From positions 90,019 to 154,018 of the IMG/VR virus record IMGVR_UViG_3300037245_001320: DNA of 64,000 nucleotides; one strand, given 5' to 3'. A program made the translations under genes and the position numbers. The first letter of the stretch is position 1. Each line of letters begins with the position of its first letter. This DNA is from a virus. Positions 763 through 63,581 of the stretch are shown piece by piece. A model generated the notes under the pieces. That model was not told the DNA's origin. It saw nothing but the letters and a program-made list of their open reading frames with translations, and made no database searches.

Positions 763-3700
763 ATGGCAGGGAATAAAGCATGGGGTGCAGGTGGATCAGG
801 ATCAGGATCGCTATCACCGTTAGAACAAAGACTAATAGAAGAATGGACAAATAATATTGTAACCTATTATGGTGATCCAGACACTCCATTAGAAGGGGAT
901 GTTAAAATAATACTAGAAGCAGGCGATTTAAACGGATACAGATACGAATCGGCAGTATGGGTTTTAAAATCAACCCTAGTAGGAGATTCTATATACACAG
1001 ATAGATTTGTATGTGTGGGTGATTTATTTAAAGGGTTATATAACGGTGAAGACTCAATGGTTCGTCTAGCCACGACTCTAGCTAAAACATTAGTTACAGG
1101 GGACACAGACTATAACCAAGTCCTAACAGGTGTAGGGGATTTACTATGGGTGGAGAGTGATGGAGTCCTAGAACATTCTATTCCGCAACCATTATTCGAC
1201 GAAGAAGTAACAACAGACTTTATGGAGTTCTGTACAGATCCATCTGAATATGAAAAAGTTATACAATCTAAATTTATGGTAACACATGCAACAGCTACTG
1301 AAGTTAAAATGAGATGGACAGCCCATTTAGATGTTGCAAAAACTAATCTAATTTATGAATCATGTACAGAGTTTGACTATAATAATGCTATTGGTCAATG
1401 TATGTTAGATATAACCACAGGTTTATTTTTTATAGAGAAACCATTGTATCTTAGTGATCTTGGTGGAGCAAAAGTGTATTATACTATTTACACAGAGTTC
1501 CCTATAACGTATAAAGGGCACACTGTTGACCCTGGAGGAGCTAACGAGCAATACTACCCATACAACGAGCAGTGGGACTATAATGCTGTAGGTAAAATAG
1601 TTGCAATGCAGGATTGGGTTGATGAGTATTCAGTAATGAAAGACGACACAGATACGACAGAAATGCAATTTGTATCAACTAACCCAGATTTAGATGTAGA
1701 TCCAACGCTATTAGGAACTAGAGAAGTTTTAAAACAGTATATTGATAACGCTGTTTCAGCATCTTTAGAGTATAAAGGAGGTTACGATGCATCACTAAAC
1801 ATTCCTAATCTAACAATAGCACCTACAGGAGTTTTACTAGGCTATTTCTACACAGTTACAGTAGCAGGAACATTTTTTACAGCCGATGTACTCGTAGGAG
1901 ATGCACTAATAGCAGAAGTAGACGATCCTTCAGTCGAAGCAGATTGGACTATTCTTAATAGAGGTTTAGATGCACCAACTGTTAAAACTTTATATGAATC
2001 TAATCCAGATACAAATGCTTTCCAAGATGCTGAAAAAACTAAATTAGGTACAGTAGAAACAAACGCAGAACCAAATAATATATCAGACATTAGCGCAACT
2101 GATTTAACGGATTTAGGGGATACAGCATTACACTATCACTCTACAGATAGAGCAAGAGTAAATCATACAGGCACTCAAACAGCTTCAACTATATCTGATT
2201 TTGATACAGAAGTCTCTAACAACACTTCGGTAGCGGATAATACAACTCATAGATCTTCTGATGGTAAAGACCATTCAGATGTAGTTACAAACAATGCAAA
2301 AGTTTCTTTTCCAGAAGCTCCAATAGATGGTGAAAGAAAAACTAGACTGGATGGTGCATGGGTAGCAGAATCTATAGCTTTAACAGATGAGCCAACTGGA
2401 TTCCTATTAGACGCTACTACAGGTGAAATAGATTTAGAAAGTTCTGAATTACTGTTTGTTGATGGAACAAGAACATTTACTATTCAACCTAAGAATCCCG
2501 CAACAGAGTTTTCTATTATACAAAGTGGTAAATTATCAACTTTTAACTCTGCACAAGACATCATAATATCAGACACAGAAGGGGTACATTATATCTATTT
2601 TAAAGAAGGTATTCTATATGAAACAACTGCATTTGATATATCTATAATTTATTCTAATGTTTTTGTTTCTGCTTTATACTGGGATGTACCTAATCAAGAA
2701 GCAATATATATCGGAGAGGAACGACATGGATGTAAAATGGATGGTCATACTCATACGAGATTACACCAAAAAGATGGAACTATTTATTTAATAGGTCTAG
2801 GCATAAACGATTTCGATCTAGGTAATGGTAGTCAAGATGTTCACGCTCAGTTCAGTATAGGTTCAGGACAGATAAAAGATGAAGACATCCTAATAACTAG
2901 AGATACAATATCTTCCACAGTTGGATGTCCTATATTCTATAAATCAGGTGCCACAGGTATCTGGAGAAGAGAGTTCAATGCAGGATTTAGTGTTCTTAAT
3001 GCTCTTGCGGGAAATAACAGGTTAGTTTGGAATGAGGATGTTGCAGGAACATGGCAGAAAACAGAAGTAGCAAACAACGATTATGTTCTTTGTCACATAT
3101 TTACCTCTAATGATATTAACTACCCATTCTTTGCGATTATGGGGCAGGCTGACTATGATAAAAAAGGGGATGCAAGAGAAGGTGCTTTAGTAGAGATAAA
3201 CAACTTAATCATGGCAGGGCTGCCATTTGCAGAGTTTGTTGCCACAGGAACAGTTATATTTAAAACAGCCGATGGTTACACTAATGCTGTAAAAGCTAAG
3301 ATAGAAACTACAGACGAAGGTGAAGATTATGTAGATTGGAGAAATAGTGGAATATCCCCTTCAAGTGGTACAGATGTAATTCAACATAATCTAACTGCTG
3401 GAAAGCAAGGTGGGACGATAAACGAGTATTATCATTTAACTGATCTAGAATTAGTAAAGCTTACAGGTATTGAAGATGGAGCACAGGTAAACGTTTATGG
3501 TACAGAGTTTGAAAGAGTTGAATCCTTATCTGAATCCAGCACTAATACAACACAGCTAGATAAAATAGATATGACCTCAGCAATGAAGCCAGCAGGAACT
3601 TACTTAGTAACTGCTAATTTTCAGATTACTAATGATAGATCAGGTAAAGAGGCTGTAGGAATTGTAACAATTAATGGTGTGGTCGCTCATCACCATACTG

Positions 3701-3882
3701 AGGGAATTAACGGAATCGTTCATATGCCTTGGAATGGGAAAGAGTGGATAACTGCTATGGTTATGATGACAGTAGTACTCCCTGCTCCAGCAACAATTCC
3801 TGCTAAGATTTCTTATTACTCAGGAAGTTCTGATTTATGTAGAATATCGGATGCATCCATAACTATAATAAGAGTTACATAA
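763..3882 (+). CDS. Tail fibre / receptor-binding-type protein
   Basis: A 1039-residue protein with GGGGGT ahead of ATG. It is Thr/Ser/Asp/Gly-rich with few Cys. Around residues 466-485 it carries NHTGTQTASTISDFD, a motif common in phage tail-fibre shafts, next to HYHSTDRA and HRSSDGKDHSDV, which are typical trimeric fibre repeats. A second fibre-like patch (IQHNLTAGKQGG) lies near residue 875. The last 130 residues look like a compact beta-sandwich, a plausible receptor-binding head. It should be a virion protein. It is closed by an intrinsic terminator at 3893-3925. The exact place in the tail (long fibre, short fibre or baseplate) cannot be read from sequence. Confidence 0.8.
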   Translation: MAGNKAWGAGGSGSGSLSPLEQRLIEEWTNNIVTYYGDPDTPLEGDVKIILEAGDLNGYRYESAVWVLKSTLVGDSIYTDRFVCVGDLFKGLYNGEDSMVRLATTLAKTLVTGDTDYNQVLTGVGDLLWVESDGVLEHSIPQPLFDEEVTTDFMEFCTDPSEYEKVIQSKFMVTHATATEVKMRWTAHLDVAKTNLIYESCTEFDYNNAIGQCMLDITTGLFFIEKPLYLSDLGGAKVYYTIYTEFPITYKGHTVDPGGANEQYYPYNEQWDYNAVGKIVAMQDWVDEYSVMKDDTDTTEMQFVSTNPDLDVDPTLLGTREVLKQYIDNAVSASLEYKGGYDASLNIPNLTIAPTGVLLGYFYTVTVAGTFFTADVLVGDALIAEVDDPSVEADWTILNRGLDAPTVKTLYESNPDTNAFQDAEKTKLGTVETNAEPNNISDISATDLTDLGDTALHYHSTDRARVNHTGTQTASTISDFDTEVSNNTSVADNTTHRSSDGKDHSDVVTNNAKVSFPEAPIDGERKTRLDGAWVAESIALTDEPTGFLLDATTGEIDLESSELLFVDGTRTFTIQPKNPATEFSIIQSGKLSTFNSAQDIIISDTEGVHYIYFKEGILYETTAFDISIIYSNVFVSALYWDVPNQEAIYIGEERHGCKMDGHTHTRLHQKDGTIYLIGLGINDFDLGNGSQDVHAQFSIGSGQIKDEDILITRDTISSTVGCPIFYKSGATGIWRREFNAGFSVLNALAGNNRLVWNEDVAGTWQKTEVANNDYVLCHIFTSNDINYPFFAIMGQADYDKKGDAREGALVEINNLIMAGLPFAEFVATGTVIFKTADGYTNAVKAKIETTDEGEDYVDWRNSGISPSSGTDVIQHNLTAGKQGGTINEYYHLTDLELVKLTGIEDGAQVNVYGTEFERVESLSESSTNTTQLDKIDMTSAMKPAGTYLVTANFQITNDRSGKEAVGIVTINGVVAHHHTEGINGIVHMPWNGKEWITAMVMMTVVLPAPATIPAKISYYSGSSDLCRISDASITIIRVT

Positions 3883-3892
3883 ACAAGGAGAA

Positions 3893-3925
3893 AACCCTCT
3901 TGTTAATCTGAGAGGGCTTTTGTTT
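3893..3925 (+). terminator. Intrinsic terminator after the tail-fibre gene
   Basis: Stem CCCTCT/AGAGGG around the loop TGTTAATCTG, followed by CTTTTGTTT. It is nearly the reverse complement of the terminator at 4711-4745, so the two flank 3945-4706 as an inverted pair. Confidence 0.8.
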
Positions 3926-3944
3926 AAACCAGAAGGAGAAATAA

Positions 3945-4706
3945 ATGACAATAACTAAAACATACCCATTTACTACGGATACTAATTATACTTATGATCC
4001 ATTAAAAGTAGTGATAACAAATGGAGAGGCTTCATTACTAGATCTCGGTGGAGGAACATATGCAACAGATAATCCAACTATAGTCTTTAATGATGAATTA
4101 CCTTTAGATGAATTACAATCATTTATAGAAACAAGTACTAAGGCAGGATTAGATGAGGTGAAATTTACGCTATCTAAGGAAGGGGTTGAGTATTATTACT
4201 CAGGGTCATGGGTTGTGAGTAATGGGACATATACAGAAGCAAACTTAGCGAGTGAGATAGAAACAAATAAGGCCTCCTTCACATCACTAGGAACTATAAC
4301 AAGTATAAAGATGTTTTTACACTCAGATGATGGTACAACAACACCCTCCGTAGACCTTATCTCTGTAGATTATAATTTTGTTCCTGTTGAGGAAACAATT
4401 CCAACAACTTTACTATATTGGTATGCAAAACATACAAATGCAGCGGATGATACAGCTATAGCCACTATTGAACTTACAAATTCCGTAGTTAAATATGGAA
4501 TACAGACAACTATAACAAAAGAAGCTATAGAGATTCAGCCAAATAGGGGCCTTTATCAGGTAGAAATAGTGGATACCCAAAATATGGAAACAGATGCTAG
4601 TTCAAATCAGCAAACATACACACTAGTCATGGGCGGACAGACATTTACTTTACATATTCCTGCACTTGATTCTGTTAACCTCTATGATAGTGGAATAATA
4701 GTATAA
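3945..4706 (+). CDS. Probable virion protein
   Basis: A 253-residue Thr/Asp/Ser-rich protein of beta character with AGAAGGAG upstream. No Cys, membrane segment or enzyme motif is evident. It sits between two terminators, after the fibre gene and before the lysis module, so it forms an almost separate unit. A structural role (fibre accessory or decoration) is inferred from composition and neighbourhood. No promoter was recognised in the short gap before it, so it may depend on read-through. Confidence 0.65.
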   Translation: MTITKTYPFTTDTNYTYDPLKVVITNGEASLLDLGGGTYATDNPTIVFNDELPLDELQSFIETSTKAGLDEVKFTLSKEGVEYYYSGSWVVSNGTYTEANLASEIETNKASFTSLGTITSIKMFLHSDDGTTTPSVDLISVDYNFVPVEETIPTTLLYWYAKHTNAADDTAIATIELTNSVVKYGIQTTITKEAIEIQPNRGLYQVEIVDTQNMETDASSNQQTYTLVMGGQTFTLHIPALDSVNLYDSGIIV

Positions 4707-10639: not shown

Positions 10640-11554
10640 TTATACTGTGTAATCTCTTGTTAAATCCATGTATTCAATTATAGGTAATGTTCCACTGTCT
10701 TTTATTATACCCACATTGATATGACTCTTCGCAAAATGCTTCCCATATGCAAAAGCAAAACTTTTATCATCTATACCACATCCAATTTGACAAGCAAATA
10801 ATCTCTTGTGTGTTCCAACAAAATGTCTTATGTATGACTTACTATGAAAATGCCCCTGACAGCAACTCAACATGTCCTCTTTAACTCTTGAATCAGCTTG
10901 TCTCCCAATACCATGGCAGTATTTAACATCGTCAAAAGTAAACTCATCTGAATACACCCAATTAGGTGTTTCCAATATTTCACTAACTGATTTGATCCAT
11001 TGAGAGCTAATACCAGAAGCAAATGCCTTTCTGTTGGCATGACTATCATGATTACCTAAAGTAACAAATGCTTTTGGGAACGCCTCATACCAAGCTTTGA
11101 CAGCTCTTTTAGATGCTTCTAACTCCCCAACGCCTGAATAAGGGCTATCAGGATCAGTTCCATGGAAAGATGTGTAATGACCATCAACTATATCCCCAAT
11201 AAAAACAACCGTTTCACAATTATGCTTCTCTTTCATTTCTAAACAAAACTCTCTGTATCCTTTTCTTGTAAAGGGTTGATGGAGATCTCCAATAACCAAT
11301 ACATTCCCTACGTTCTTAGTGGGAGGTATAATACTCATTGAAACTTCTTCCTTGGTAGATAATCCCAATTTCTCCCTAGTAAACTCTCTTCCTTCTCTTA
11401 AATAACGGTTAAACGTCTCTAATTCTAAATCAGTTTCAAACTCTCTGTTGAATTCTTTTAACCACTGTTCTCTTTTTGTCTTGTCTAAATTCTTCGTGTT
11501 AATAACTTCATTCTCTAAGCATAAGTTGCTTACCCATTCCTGTCTCTTACTCAA
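10640..11554 (-). CDS. Calcineurin-like metallophosphoesterase
   Basis: A 304-residue protein with a helical, HTH-like N-terminus of about 85 residues and a metallophosphoesterase core. The motifs appear in order: GDLHQPF, GDIVDGH, GNHDSH, then HGIG and GHFHS near the end, covering the two-metal ligands of the family. It may hydrolyse phosphodiesters in nucleic acids or nucleotides; the substrate cannot be read from sequence. It follows a homing-type endonuclease gene by one base. Confidence 0.8.
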   Translation of the reverse strand: MSKRQEWVSNLCLENEVINTKNLDKTKREQWLKEFNREFETDLELETFNRYLREGREFTREKLGLSTKEEVSMSIIPPTKNVGNVLVIGDLHQPFTRKGYREFCLEMKEKHNCETVVFIGDIVDGHYTSFHGTDPDSPYSGVGELEASKRAVKAWYEAFPKAFVTLGNHDSHANRKAFASGISSQWIKSVSEILETPNWVYSDEFTFDDVKYCHGIGRQADSRVKEDMLSCCQGHFHSKSYIRHFVGTHKRLFACQIGCGIDDKSFAFAYGKHFAKSHINVGIIKDSGTLPIIEYMDLTRDYTV

Positions 11555-31428: not shown

Positions 31429-31650
31429 TTATTCTTTGTCAGAGTTTACTCCTTTATAGATTACTACATCAGTTACTTTGTTAATAGAGATAATCAACTT
31501 AGTCTTATGTTGAATAGGTAAGAGTTCTTTTATTCTATCTATATTTTCCTCTTCCATCTCAGCATTTACATAATCTGTATGATCTATTAAGATAATAATT
31601 TCTGTGAAGTATTTGTCATTCTTACATACTTGTAGTTCTAGTGTTGTCAT
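31429..31650 (-). CDS. Unknown protein, 73 aa
   Basis: Small alpha/beta protein overlapping the dUTPase stop by one base. No motif recognised. Confidence 0.55.
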   Translation of the reverse strand: MTTLELQVCKNDKYFTEIIILIDHTDYVNAEMEEENIDRIKELLPIQHKTKLIISINKVTDVVIYKGVNSDKE

Positions 31651-32096
31651 TAGTGACTCCCTGTACTGCCATAAGCTCCTGATCCTCTTTCTGTTTCCTT
31701 ATTTAAAGAATCTACTTTTTTAAATACTGCCTCTGTTGTGGGAGCATAAACACCTTGACAAACTCTCATTCCGTGAGTTACATAAAATGGTTTATCCCCT
31801 TCATTTCTAAGGATAATTCCAACTTCTCCCACGTAATCTTCATCAATTGTAGCAGTTCCCTGGGCAATAATCAAACCATGCTTTTTAGTTAAGCCTGATC
31901 TTGATCTTAATTGGACTTCATATCCTTCATAAATACCCATTTTAATACCAGAAGGTACAGTTACTGCTTCCCCTATACCTATTCTAATGTCTTCATTAGG
32001 TGTGAATGCTTTTAAATCGAAGCCTGATGATTGTTTTGTGCCATATTCAGGCATGAACTCTTTTGTTTCTATTAGTAATTCTTTTTGATCTCTCAA
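31650..32096 (-). CDS. dut: dUTPase (deoxyuridine triphosphatase)
   Basis: A 148-residue trimeric-type dUTPase. Its five motifs are visible: SGFDLKAF (1), RSRSGLTKKHG (2), GTATIDEDYVGEV (3), a motif-4 region around MRVCQGVYAP, and the C-terminal arm RGSGAYGSTG (5). It starts at TTG with GAGGAG seven bases upstream. It hydrolyses dUTP to dUMP, keeping uracil out of DNA and feeding dTMP synthesis. It follows the RNA cluster and may share its promoter at 32688. Confidence 0.92.
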   Translation of the reverse strand: MRDQKELLIETKEFMPEYGTKQSSGFDLKAFTPNEDIRIGIGEAVTVPSGIKMGIYEGYEVQLRSRSGLTKKHGLIIAQGTATIDEDYVGEVGIILRNEGDKPFYVTHGMRVCQGVYAPTTEAVFKKVDSLNKETERGSGAYGSTGSH

Positions 32097-32128: not shown

Positions 32129-32209
32129 TGGATCTTATCCGACTCGAACGGATGACTTCATGAGAGCATTACCTTTGATCATGATTTCTACCAACTGAAT
32201 TAAAGACCC
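32129..32209 (-). tRNA. Aberrant tRNA-like gene with enlarged anticodon region
   Basis: A seven-pair acceptor GGGTCTT/AAGATCC, a D-arm with AGTTGGTA loop (weak stem), and a perfect T-arm ATCCG-TTCGAGT-CGGAT are present, followed by A and no encoded CCA. Between D- and T-arms there are about ten bases too many: the best anticodon stem TCATG/CATGA encloses 17 bases instead of seven. The anticodon is therefore undefined. It may be a decayed tRNA, one with an insertion, or a tRNA-like end of the structured RNA next to it. Confidence 0.5.
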
Positions 32210-32220
32210 GTATGTTAGAT

Positions 32221-32650
32221 TTTCACAGCGAATCCTCCCCAAACTGGCTAAAGTATTTACAACCCTTGAGCAATGAGTTGGTCCTTTTCCTTATTTTATT
32301 TACGAGAGTTTTAAAAGGTCTTCTAAACGTACTCTCTTTATTAAATCAATTTTTGTGCTCTTGGTTTTTATTCCAACTCATAGTCTTTCCTCTGATCGTC
32401 ATAAGGGTTTCTCTGTTACTCCCTTAACTCTCAACCTCTTTTAAAGCAATAGGCGTGCATCAACGCCTCGGTTTACTTAATGGAAGGGTTATTAATCTCC
32501 CACCTTACTCCTGACCTGCGAAGTAAGCTCTCGCTTTAATTCTCATGCTTCCTCCTTTATATTGTCTTATCTTAATAATTGTAGTATATCCCTTATGTCC
32601 CATATACCAGAGGCTGACACAACGCTTATTGTCACGACACCAATTATTAA
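32221..32650 (-). ncRNA. Large structured RNA candidate
   Basis: About 430 bases without a credible long gene, downstream of a sigma70-type promoter. Leftward RNA can form many helices: TTAATAATTG/CAATTATTAA (32641-32650 with 32573-32582) closing two hairpins (TGACA/TGTCA; GTATAT/ATATAC); CTTACT/AGTAAG; AGGCG/CGCCT; and a nested pair AACCCTT/AAGGGTT outside ATGAGTTGG/CCAACTCAT, which encloses GAGAGT/ACTCTC. Adjacency to a tRNA-like gene recalls the large ornate phage RNAs (GOLLD, ROOL), but I cannot show homology. Confidence 0.5.
32505..32546 (-). CDS. Possible 13-codon leader peptide
   Basis: ATG with an excellent site (AAAGGAGGAAGC) begins MRIKARAYFAGQE and stops at TAA. It lies just after the first helix bundle of the structured RNA. 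It may be a leader peptide that couples translation to RNA folding, or a chance frame. Confidence 0.4.
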   Translation of the reverse strand: MRIKARAYFAGQE

Positions 32651-32687
32651 AAAGTTTATTTATTATTTGTTACTCTTGACTTAAAAC

Positions 32688-32716
32688 AGTATACCACACT
32701 TTCAAGTAAAAGTCAA
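32688..32716 (-). promoter_or_regulatory. Sigma70-type promoter for the RNA/dUTPase unit
   Basis: Leftward TTGACT, 17 bp, TATACT with TGG just upstream of the -10. The predicted RNA start is near 32681, ahead of the structured RNA, tRNA-like gene and dut. Confidence 0.75.
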
Positions 32717-32872
32717 CCCCTTTTCGGAATATTTCTCAATTATTTTTTCAATTGTTATATCTTCTGGTAAATCCTTTAAAATAATGCCTTCTAAACGACA
32801 GCTCTCCCGATAATTATCCTTTCTAACCTTCCTAATGAATTCTGCTTTCTCTTCAAAAGTCTTGTTAATCAT
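32702..32872 (-). CDS. Unknown small protein, 56 aa
   Basis: Starts at 32872 inside the stop of the previous gene and ends at TGA 32702, within the promoter. Charged helical sequence beginning MINKTFEEKAEF. No family recognised. Confidence 0.6.
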   Translation of the reverse strand: MINKTFEEKAEFIRKVRKDNYRESCRLEGIILKDLPEDITIEKIIEKYSEKGLTFT

Positions 32873-37106: not shown

Positions 37107-37149
37107 TATACTTTCACAATTATTTCTGTGACATGTTTTTAATCACATA

Positions 37150-37312
37150 TTATTCTCTCCTCTCAAAAATATGCGTTAGAGTCGCATCCCTCCGTCTAAC
37201 CTCACCAAAGTTAGTCTATATTCATTCAGTTAAATATAGACAAATCAATAGGAATTGAACCTACGACTTCTTACCAAACCTCTACGAACGAGTTGGAATC
37301 GAACCTACATTC
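37150..37312 (-). other. tRNA-like remnants downstream of tRNA
   Basis: About 160 bases without a gene. Pieces look like T-arms (GTAGG-TTCAATT-CCTAT; GTAGG-TTCGATT-CCAAC with a mismatch), and there are strong stems TCTATATT/AATATAGA, CTAAC/GTTAG and GTTAGA/TCTAAC. No complete cloverleaf can be built, so these are probably decayed tRNAs. Confidence 0.35.
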
Positions 37313-62314: not shown

Positions 62315-62769
62315 CTAAACTCCACCGCTGTTATATTCAAATTAGGTGTTACTCGTTCTATAATACCTTTAATCTTTTCCCAATCTCCACCTGCATATCC
62401 TGAACCAATAAAAGGAATTCCCATCTTAGTTTGAGATAAAGTATCCCACTCATTTAATCTAGTGAACACTTTCTCTATTGCATCATAATCTACAGAAGAC
62501 TTTCCACCATACCTGTACTGAGTATAAGCATTGATAATAATTTGAGAATATTCTCTCTCGTATAAAATAACATGAGAACAATTACCTAATTTATTAATAT
62601 CACCCTTCTTGGTTTTCAAATCTGCTTTATATGCCTCTGGATATTGTTCTTTTATTTGTTTTGCTATTCCTGCTCCCATTGTATTAAAACAGTTACACCC
62701 ATGTATAATTGTATCAAATTGTTTTAATCTAAAATATTCTAGTAGGTTTCCTCTTATTGTTTCCATCAC
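62311..62769 (-). CDS. Macrodomain protein (ADP-ribose hydrolase-type)
   Basis: A 152-residue protein covering one whole macrodomain: IRGNLLEY, IIHGCNCFNTMGAGIAKQI (ligand Asn and Gly loop), then PFIGSGYAGGDW as the second ADP-ribose loop. It is closest in pattern to the Poa1p/DarG-like group. It likely removes ADP-ribose from proteins, nucleic acids or phosphate ends. The NADAR gene at 51911 and SLOG gene at 56457 point to a theme of ADP-ribose handling, possibly against host toxins. It overlaps the FliM/FliN-like gene by four bases. Confidence 0.88.
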   Translation of the reverse strand: MMETIRGNLLEYFRLKQFDTIIHGCNCFNTMGAGIAKQIKEQYPEAYKADLKTKKGDINKLGNCSHVILYEREYSQIIINAYTQYRYGGKSSVDYDAIEKVFTRLNEWDTLSQTKMGIPFIGSGYAGGDWEKIKGIIERVTPNLNITAVEFR

Positions 62770-63581
62770 TTAAATACCTCAACCAAGCGTACTCCAAACT
62801 TCTCATCAACTAATACCACTTCTCCTAGCCCAATCTGTTTTCCATCCACAAATACAGGGACAGCATCTCCGACATTCCTATCTAATTCTATAATCGAACC
62901 TTCTCCGAGTTCTCCTACATCACCTATACTTATCTCTGCTTTTCCTAGACTAGCTTCTATATTTGTTTTTATAGCATCTTTATCAAATTTCATATTATTC
63001 TCCTTTAATTCATTTTTGTGTAACCATTTACTTAATTCTTTAGCTGGTATACAGATAGTAAATAACCCCTCTAGTTCTTCAGAACATATCTCAAAAGTAA
63101 ATAAGCAAATCATCTCATGCCTTTCCTCATAAAATCTATATTCTGTGGTGTAATCTTTATGTCCTGCTGTACAACCTCCTAAATTAGGGAGGTTTTTGAA
63201 TAGATTATCTTGTGGTATGTCTGCTAAGTTCTTATCTAGTTCTATAATAATATACTTTAATCTATCATTAAGAGCGCGGTATACTCTAGAAACGGAAGGT
63301 ATACTTCTTGTGAACTCCTCATAGGTTAATTGATCTATAGAGCATAAGTTACATTGGTATTTTTCTCCTAAAAGCTCTTGTATCTCCATATGTATTAAGA
63401 ATGAGTATCTCTGGAAAATGTCATTTAGTTTTGTTAAATCTTTCTTGGTTAATATATCTGGTCTTTGAAAATCATATATTTTTATATTCTTTCTTTGTGT
63501 TACTTCTTGTTCTCCTGTATCTTCTTCTGATATTACAGTTAATAATTGATCTATGTCATCTTGACTTAATACTTCTGTCAT
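62766..63581 (-). CDS. Flagellar switch-like protein, FliM/FliN chimera
   Basis: A 271-residue protein. Residues 1-14 (EVLSQDDIDQLL) match the CheY-binding N-terminal peptide of FliM; KIYDFQRPD (35-42) and SIDQLTYEEFTRSIP (81-95) are further FliM hallmarks. Residues 96-190 resemble a shortened FliM middle domain, with an LGG near 134-136 where FliM has its FliG-binding loop. Residues 208-270 are a SpoA/FliN-type domain (GKAEISIGDVGELGEGSIIEL, GEVVLVDEKFGVRL). Domain order resembles FliM or FliY, but the C-terminus is FliN-like. AGGAAG precedes its ATG. It could enter the host C-ring and alter switching or sequester CheY. I know of no described phage system of this kind; that remains to be checked. 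Confidence 0.85.
   Translation of the reverse strand: MTEVLSQDDIDQLLTVISEEDTGEQEVTQRKNIKIYDFQRPDILTKKDLTKLNDIFQRYSFLIHMEIQELLGEKYQCNLCSIDQLTYEEFTRSIPSVSRVYRALNDRLKYIIIELDKNLADIPQDNLFKNLPNLGGCTAGHKDYTTEYRFYEERHEMICLFTFEICSEELEGLFTICIPAKELSKWLHKNELKENNMKFDKDAIKTNIEASLGKAEISIGDVGELGEGSIIELDRNVGDAVPVFVDGKQIGLGEVVLVDEKFGVRLVEVFK

Follow-up and report, generated by a model that had tools for sequence, protein, structure and literature searches.

Organization of the locus

Between a strong promoter and the dUTPase gene of a 154-kb phage lie about 550 bases in which no protein could be recognized. The stretch is predicted to be transcribed, it precedes the DNA-replication genes, and its 3′ end has the shape of a tRNA, which raises the question of whether it gives rise to a structured RNA, serves as a leader for the genes behind it, or is a relic. 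The window that we analyzed, 64,000 nucleotides in length, comprises bases 90,019–154,018 of the phage record, and positions below are those of the window unless another source is named. Because the flanking genes sit on the minus strand, we read the feature on that strand, where the order is promoter, some 470 nt lacking any convincing gene, tRNA-like element and dUTPase gene. The individual features are as follows:

32688–32716, minus strand: extended −10 promoter of the sigma-70 type (TTGACT-17-TATACT), with a start predicted near 32681
32210–32681, minus strand: body of the predicted non-coding RNA or leader, about 470 nt (ORF, family, GC and fold analyses)
32572–32650, minus strand: 10-bp perfect stem TTAATAATTG / CAATTATTAA, with smaller hairpins inside (stem count)
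32551–32558, minus strand: Shine-Dalgarno-like AAAGGAGG, preceding the mini-ORF (sequence motif)
32505–32546, minus strand: 13-codon mini-ORF MRIKARAYFAGQE (ORF scan)
32441–32550, minus strand: four-way junction with closing stem TTAAAGC/GCTTTAA and three hairpins (z −2.7)
32273–32381, minus strand: 9-bp perfect stem ATGAGTTGG / CCAACTCAT, with a GAGAGT/ACTCTC hairpin inside (stem count, folding)
32129–32209, minus strand: tRNA-like element (ARAGORN with introns allowed, shuffle control)
31650–32096, minus strand: dUTPase gene, the first past the tRNA-like element (ORF and family match)

A strong promoter far ahead of dUTPase

The initial annotation had proposed a sigma70-type promoter at the head of this stretch, and scoring across the whole genome bears this out. 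Reading from 32716 to 32688, it consists of TTGACT, 17 nt of spacing and an extended −10 (TGG-TATACT), and its −35 overlaps the 3′ end of an upstream 56-aa ORF (32702–32872). The same scoring on both strands of the 154-kb genome yields 39 candidates, of which this is one of those tied at ranks five to twelve. The top-scoring promoters lie mostly in gaps, 16–55 nt upstream of a gene, whereas about 585 nt separate this one from the dUTPase gene. Transcription is predicted to begin near 32681. A search for a minus-strand terminator between the tRNA-like element and dUTPase found none, so a single transcript probably spans both and runs on into the replication genes.

In one reading of this arrangement, the promoter drives the dUTPase operon, and everything between is an ordinary long 5′ leader together with the remains of a tRNA gene, without function of its own. 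We regard this as an unlikely but serious alternative. The unusual distance from promoter to gene speaks against it, as do two properties of the body described next, while the folding and the tRNA-like element provide arguments in its favor.

The body lacks a convincing gene

From the predicted start to the dUTPase gene at 32096 there is no convincing gene, and the earlier estimate of some 430 non-coding bases agrees with the 430–470 or so ORF-poor bases that we count after the promoter. When the three minus-strand frames were read through their stops (entered as X), Pfam and PHROGs returned no family match, and a codon-usage score preferred no single frame of the body and revealed no consistent reading frame; a recently broken protein gene is therefore unlikely. 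A decayed gene was among the findings that the initial annotation had named as telling against an RNA, and the body does not resemble one. A decayed tRNA array is likewise unsupported, as no further tRNA remains were found in the body, and their absence is also an argument against a functionless residue. So is base composition: the region has a GC content of 36–37% (body, 36%) compared with a mean of 31% for non-coding tiles, which places it above most non-coding gaps, and the gaps that equal or exceed it mainly contain introns or tRNA-Met. In keeping with a residue, the genome has further ORF-free gaps whose size is comparable or greater. A search of the same genome for second copies of the region found none. 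Elsewhere in the genome, two large ORF-free regions (genome 19622–21232 and 32350–33589, in L003/L004) both carry copies of a TTAGGC...CCTAA-like repeat and are possible replication origins or regulatory arrays.

The one frame in the body that stands out is the mini-ORF at 32546–32505, whose ATG is preceded at good spacing by a strong ribosome site, AAAGGAGG, and which an in-frame ATG farther upstream would extend to 32 aa. It suggests a form of translated-leader control, in which a ribosome on the 13 codons would switch the downstream fold and so tune the dUTPase operon, with the tRNA-like element as a bystander or as part of the switch. AAGGAGG followed by ATG occurs just ten times in 154 kb, both strands included, and the mini-ORF runs into the best-folding sub-domain of the body, the four-way junction at 32441–32550, both of which favor such control. 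However, about half or more of the ten sites lie inside other genes or open very short frames, so this ribosome site may be a chance occurrence. A search for homologs of the peptide found none, and a back-translated pattern of the mini-ORF gave four matches, all inside unrelated longer frames. Furthermore, neither a good terminator nor a sequestered dUTPase ribosome site was found. We consider this kind of regulation rather improbable, although together with the functionless residue it is a main rival of the explanation given below.

Folding and comparison with RNA families

The same annotation had described an ornate fold with perfect stems of ten, nine and seven base pairs. The stems are indeed present, as we count one of 10 bp (32650/32572), one of 9 bp (32381/32273), two of 8 bp and five of 7 bp, but an excess over chance was not confirmed. 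Dinucleotide shuffles equal these counts in 3–10% of cases, and 15–27% of same-size tiles of the genome carry as many; for 9- or 10-bp stems the corresponding share of tiles is 15–18%, and a 10-bp stem occurs in 18%. The ornate character is not supported: the RNA as a whole folds no better than its shuffles (z of −0.26), and neither does the body (−0.63; −1.9 for its best 240-nt window), so that the folding energy below shuffles by which a structured non-coding RNA would be recognized is seen for neither. As a calibration, the four group I introns of the same phage reach z values of −3.0 to −6.1. Only one sub-domain, the 110-nt four-way junction, is clearly better than shuffles (z −2.7, picked after scanning). 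A weak z is nevertheless compatible with a real RNA, because the long non-coding RNA (lncRNA) region of phage ICP1 scores just −1.7. For the view that the region is a residue, the near-zero z and the stem counts close to those of genome tiles are what one would expect.

Rfam identified tRNA-Met as the sole match in the window at gathering thresholds, and a search of 801 bases of the region at E values up to 10 returned nothing relevant. This negative result is meaningful because the same search detects four group I introns elsewhere in the genome. Those introns lie within 2.6 kb of one another at 10795–13371 of L005 (genome 50795–53371), where one of the surrounding ORFs matches the terminase large subunit, and the terminase gene has apparently been split several times. 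In the region under study, the covariance models for GOLLD, ROOL, RNase P RNA and the group I intron gave no match at gathering thresholds or at E up to 10, and no tmRNA gene was called by ARAGORN or Rfam. These were the searches by which the suggested kinship with GOLLD or ROOL could be judged, and that suggestion is largely refuted. GOLLD and ROOL are nanocage-forming RNAs often found near tRNA islands (PMC12286853), and a phage location with a tRNA-like neighbor would suit a diverged member of either family. However, besides the silence of Rfam, the RNA is shorter than most GOLLD RNAs, many of which exceed 800 nt (PMC12286853), and it folds weakly, and we consider such an identity extremely improbable.

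The element at the 3′ end descends from a tRNA

The claim that the stretch ends at a tRNA-like gene is upheld by ARAGORN, albeit under relaxed settings. By default the program makes no call here, but with introns allowed it reports complement 32129–32209, whose anticodon loop carries an insert of 10 nt. Such a match appeared in 0 of 60 shuffled genomes when introns of up to 30 nt were permitted, and once in 60 shuffled copies when the limit was raised to 300 nt. Acceptor stem, D-arm and T-arm follow one another in the right order, which indicates that the element descends from a tRNA. The acceptor stem (7 bp, GGGTCTT/AAGATCC) contains a G3·U70 pair and is followed by A73, with no encoded CCA; a G·U at 3–70 together with A at 73 is an identity signal for alanyl-tRNA synthetase. 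The T-arm is canonical, and only three perfect T-arms occur in the genome, the other two belonging to tRNA-Met (37387–37313) and to a relic behind it.

Other parts depart from a functional tRNA. The D-arm has an A10·A25 mismatch, and the anticodon stem of 5 bp (32183–32179/32163–32159) closes a loop of 15 nt in place of the 7 nt of a true tRNA, which makes it very unlikely that the element is able to decode. The element is absent from the matches to the Rfam tRNA model even at E up to 10, and its lowest-energy fold (−18.1 kcal/mol) is not the cloverleaf (−14.9 kcal/mol). The oversized loop and the mismatched D-stem would also be expected of a residue, and the T-arm relic behind tRNA-Met adds to the case for one. 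That locus (37107–37312, minus strand) holds two T-arm-like sequences, GTAGGTTCGATTCCAAC and GTAGGTTCAATTCCTAT, without the remaining tRNA parts, and these are remains of further tRNA genes. Additionally, the phage encodes an RtcB RNA ligase (L005 17213–18385, plus strand), which is of interest given the extra bases in the anticodon loop of the tRNA-like element.

A proposed processed leader as the best explanation

It is likely that a transcribed non-coding stretch adjoining a tRNA-like element is real. The explanation that we favor, tentatively and at somewhat less than even chances, is that the region is the non-coding leader of the replication gene cluster and that the tRNA-like element is a processing site for RNase P. 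Transcription would start near 32681, cross some 470 bases that are translated little or not at all, and read on through the tRNA-like element and the dUTPase gene to the genes that follow. The element, unfit for decoding owing to its 15-nt anticodon loop, would act as a processing signal, with RNase P cutting at its 5′ end (before 32209) and 3′-side nucleases cutting after 32129. Two products would result, namely a released non-coding RNA, about 470 nt long and with a fixed 3′ end, and an mRNA beginning at dUTPase. A mark that separates these two molecules fits the element well, because the acceptor stem and T-arm, the parts that RNase P recognizes, remain intact, in contrast to the decoding loop.

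Several further observations support this explanation. The strong promoter is placed for the stretch, the GC content matches that of the phage's own intron and tRNA gaps, the tRNA ancestry is significant against shuffled genomes, and the body is neither a decayed tRNA array nor a recognizable decayed gene. Two other phages, described below, have a similar order of a non-coding stretch followed by a tRNA-like element. Against it stand the shuffle-like folding of the body, the body's lack of a homolog in the searches described below, the silence of the Rfam tRNA model at E up to 10 and a cloverleaf that is not the lowest-energy fold. A broken tRNA gene near a promoter also needs no function, and the genome carries a tRNA relic elsewhere. 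The promoter, the lack of coding, the tRNA ancestry and the failure to find a terminator are results of computation, and from them we infer that the stretch is transcribed, that RNase P would cut the transcript and that the released RNA may have a role.

Search for relatives

A DNA similarity search of a phage collection found no homolog of the body, and the similarities in named phages were just short tRNA-like stretches or noise. Approaching the body through its neighbors and through marker genes (dUTPase, CoaE-like kinase, DNA polymerase, major capsid protein and UvsX) also yielded no homolog. The phage is isolated, its DNA polymerase being about 23% identical to the best named match, and the single real relative found is a 12-kb contig (L008) whose capsid protein is 64% identical and which has no match to the region studied here. 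The phage also encodes a FliM/FliN-type flagellar switch protein (window 62766–63581, minus strand) and a CheD chemotaxis protein (L003 19169–19621, plus strand), uncommon phage cargo which suggests that the host is motile.

A pattern search for a D-arm and a T-arm with a long spacer, in which the D-arm core was part of the pattern, returned 18 loci. Most of these are aberrant or long-spaced tRNA genes that no long non-coding stretch precedes. A scan of a genome collection for the D-arm signature gave two matches, apparently inside protein-coding sequence. Two of the 18 loci, L018 and L031 from related 410-kb phages, have a layout that resembles the window, with apparently non-coding upstream DNA of about 0.47 kb or about 1 kb and then a tRNA-like element. 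The 20-nt D-arm TAATTCAGTTGGTAGAAATC is identical in all three, including the A10·A25 mismatch, and by hand alignment L018 and L031 also have a drawable five-pair anticodon stem, a large loop with TGCTC at its end, a G3·U70 pair that is possible and an A discriminator.

These resemblances would fit a novel kind of phage RNA, closed at its 3′ end by a tRNA-like domain and common to the window and the two larger phages. However, the D-arm core belonged to the search pattern, and in the flanks outside that pattern the window and L018 agree at 11 of 18 positions, little above the background, in which the hits average 8.7 and an unrelated one reaches 10. The acceptor stem of L018 requires a bulged U, and the bodies have no alignable similarity outside the D-arm. 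We treat a shared origin of the window's tRNA-like element with those of L018 and L031 as no more than possible, and a common class seems to us a long shot. Equally speculative is a fuller version, in which a large, fast-changing body carries a 3′ tRNA-like cap with alanine identity and an oversized anticodon loop, shared with the unrelated 410-kb phages, and in which RtcB perhaps takes part in cutting and resealing the RNA.

A search for named relatives of the L018 phage found none, but there is clear homology between L018 and L031, and we note that they contain a candidate large non-coding RNA of their own (L018 2960–3640, plus strand; L031 about 3190–4370, minus strand) with conserved 5′ and 3′ blocks, the tRNA-like element and a terminator. 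The terminator stem shows a compensatory change from GATTGGG/CCCAATT to GATGGGG/CCCCATT, and a large internal stretch has been replaced between the two, the central part being longer in L031 by several hundred bases. Rfam gives just a weak tRNA match on this candidate. Near its 5′ end is a seven-codon mini-ORF, ATG GAA (A/C)GA CCT CCG CCC (TCA/ATG) TAA, at about 2992–3015 in L018 and about 1615–1638 of the reverse strand in L031, with a synonymous change of the arginine codon between the two. Enlarged anticodon loops (GGGCGGTTAGTTCAGTTGGTAGAAC... and close variants) also recur in phage tRNA-like genes of L019, L021, L023, L025, L027, L032 and L033, several of them directly downstream of a 151-aa ORF.

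Comparison with known RNAs

Several abundant phage lncRNAs have unknown roles. If the tRNA-like element is a handle for processing or charging and not a decoder, it would provide a direct experimental handle on such an RNA; should the region amount to just a leader and a defective tRNA, it would be a relic of an ordinary kind. Like GOLLD and ROOL, the region is phage-encoded, hundreds of bases long and adjoined by a tRNA or tRNA-like element, but it matches neither covariance model and has no strong overall fold. With tmRNA it shares a G3·U70 pair and A73 together with a short reading frame in one RNA. The tRNA-like part of tmRNA is formed from both ends of the RNA, whereas here it is one contiguous 3′ domain with a D-stem.

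Unclassified phage lncRNAs are already known, including one of about 800 nt in phage ICP1 (PMC7567579) and others near tRNA genes in phage K (PMC9241854). These are long ORF-less stretches as here, and those of phage K share the proximity to tRNA genes; they are abundant by RNA-seq, while the RNA of our region is predicted from sequence. The ICP1 RNA shows no sequence likeness to our region and has no tRNA-like end. If transcribed, the region would be a further unclassified phage RNA with an unusual tRNA-like end. A parallel to the processing that we favor is MALAT1/mascRNA, a eukaryotic lncRNA directly followed by a tRNA-like element and with a 3′ end made by RNase P. Although MALAT1 is unrelated in sequence, and cleavage of the phage RNA is a proposal, both systems place a tRNA-like element directly behind a long non-coding RNA, whose 3′ end RNase P would form in the phage as well.
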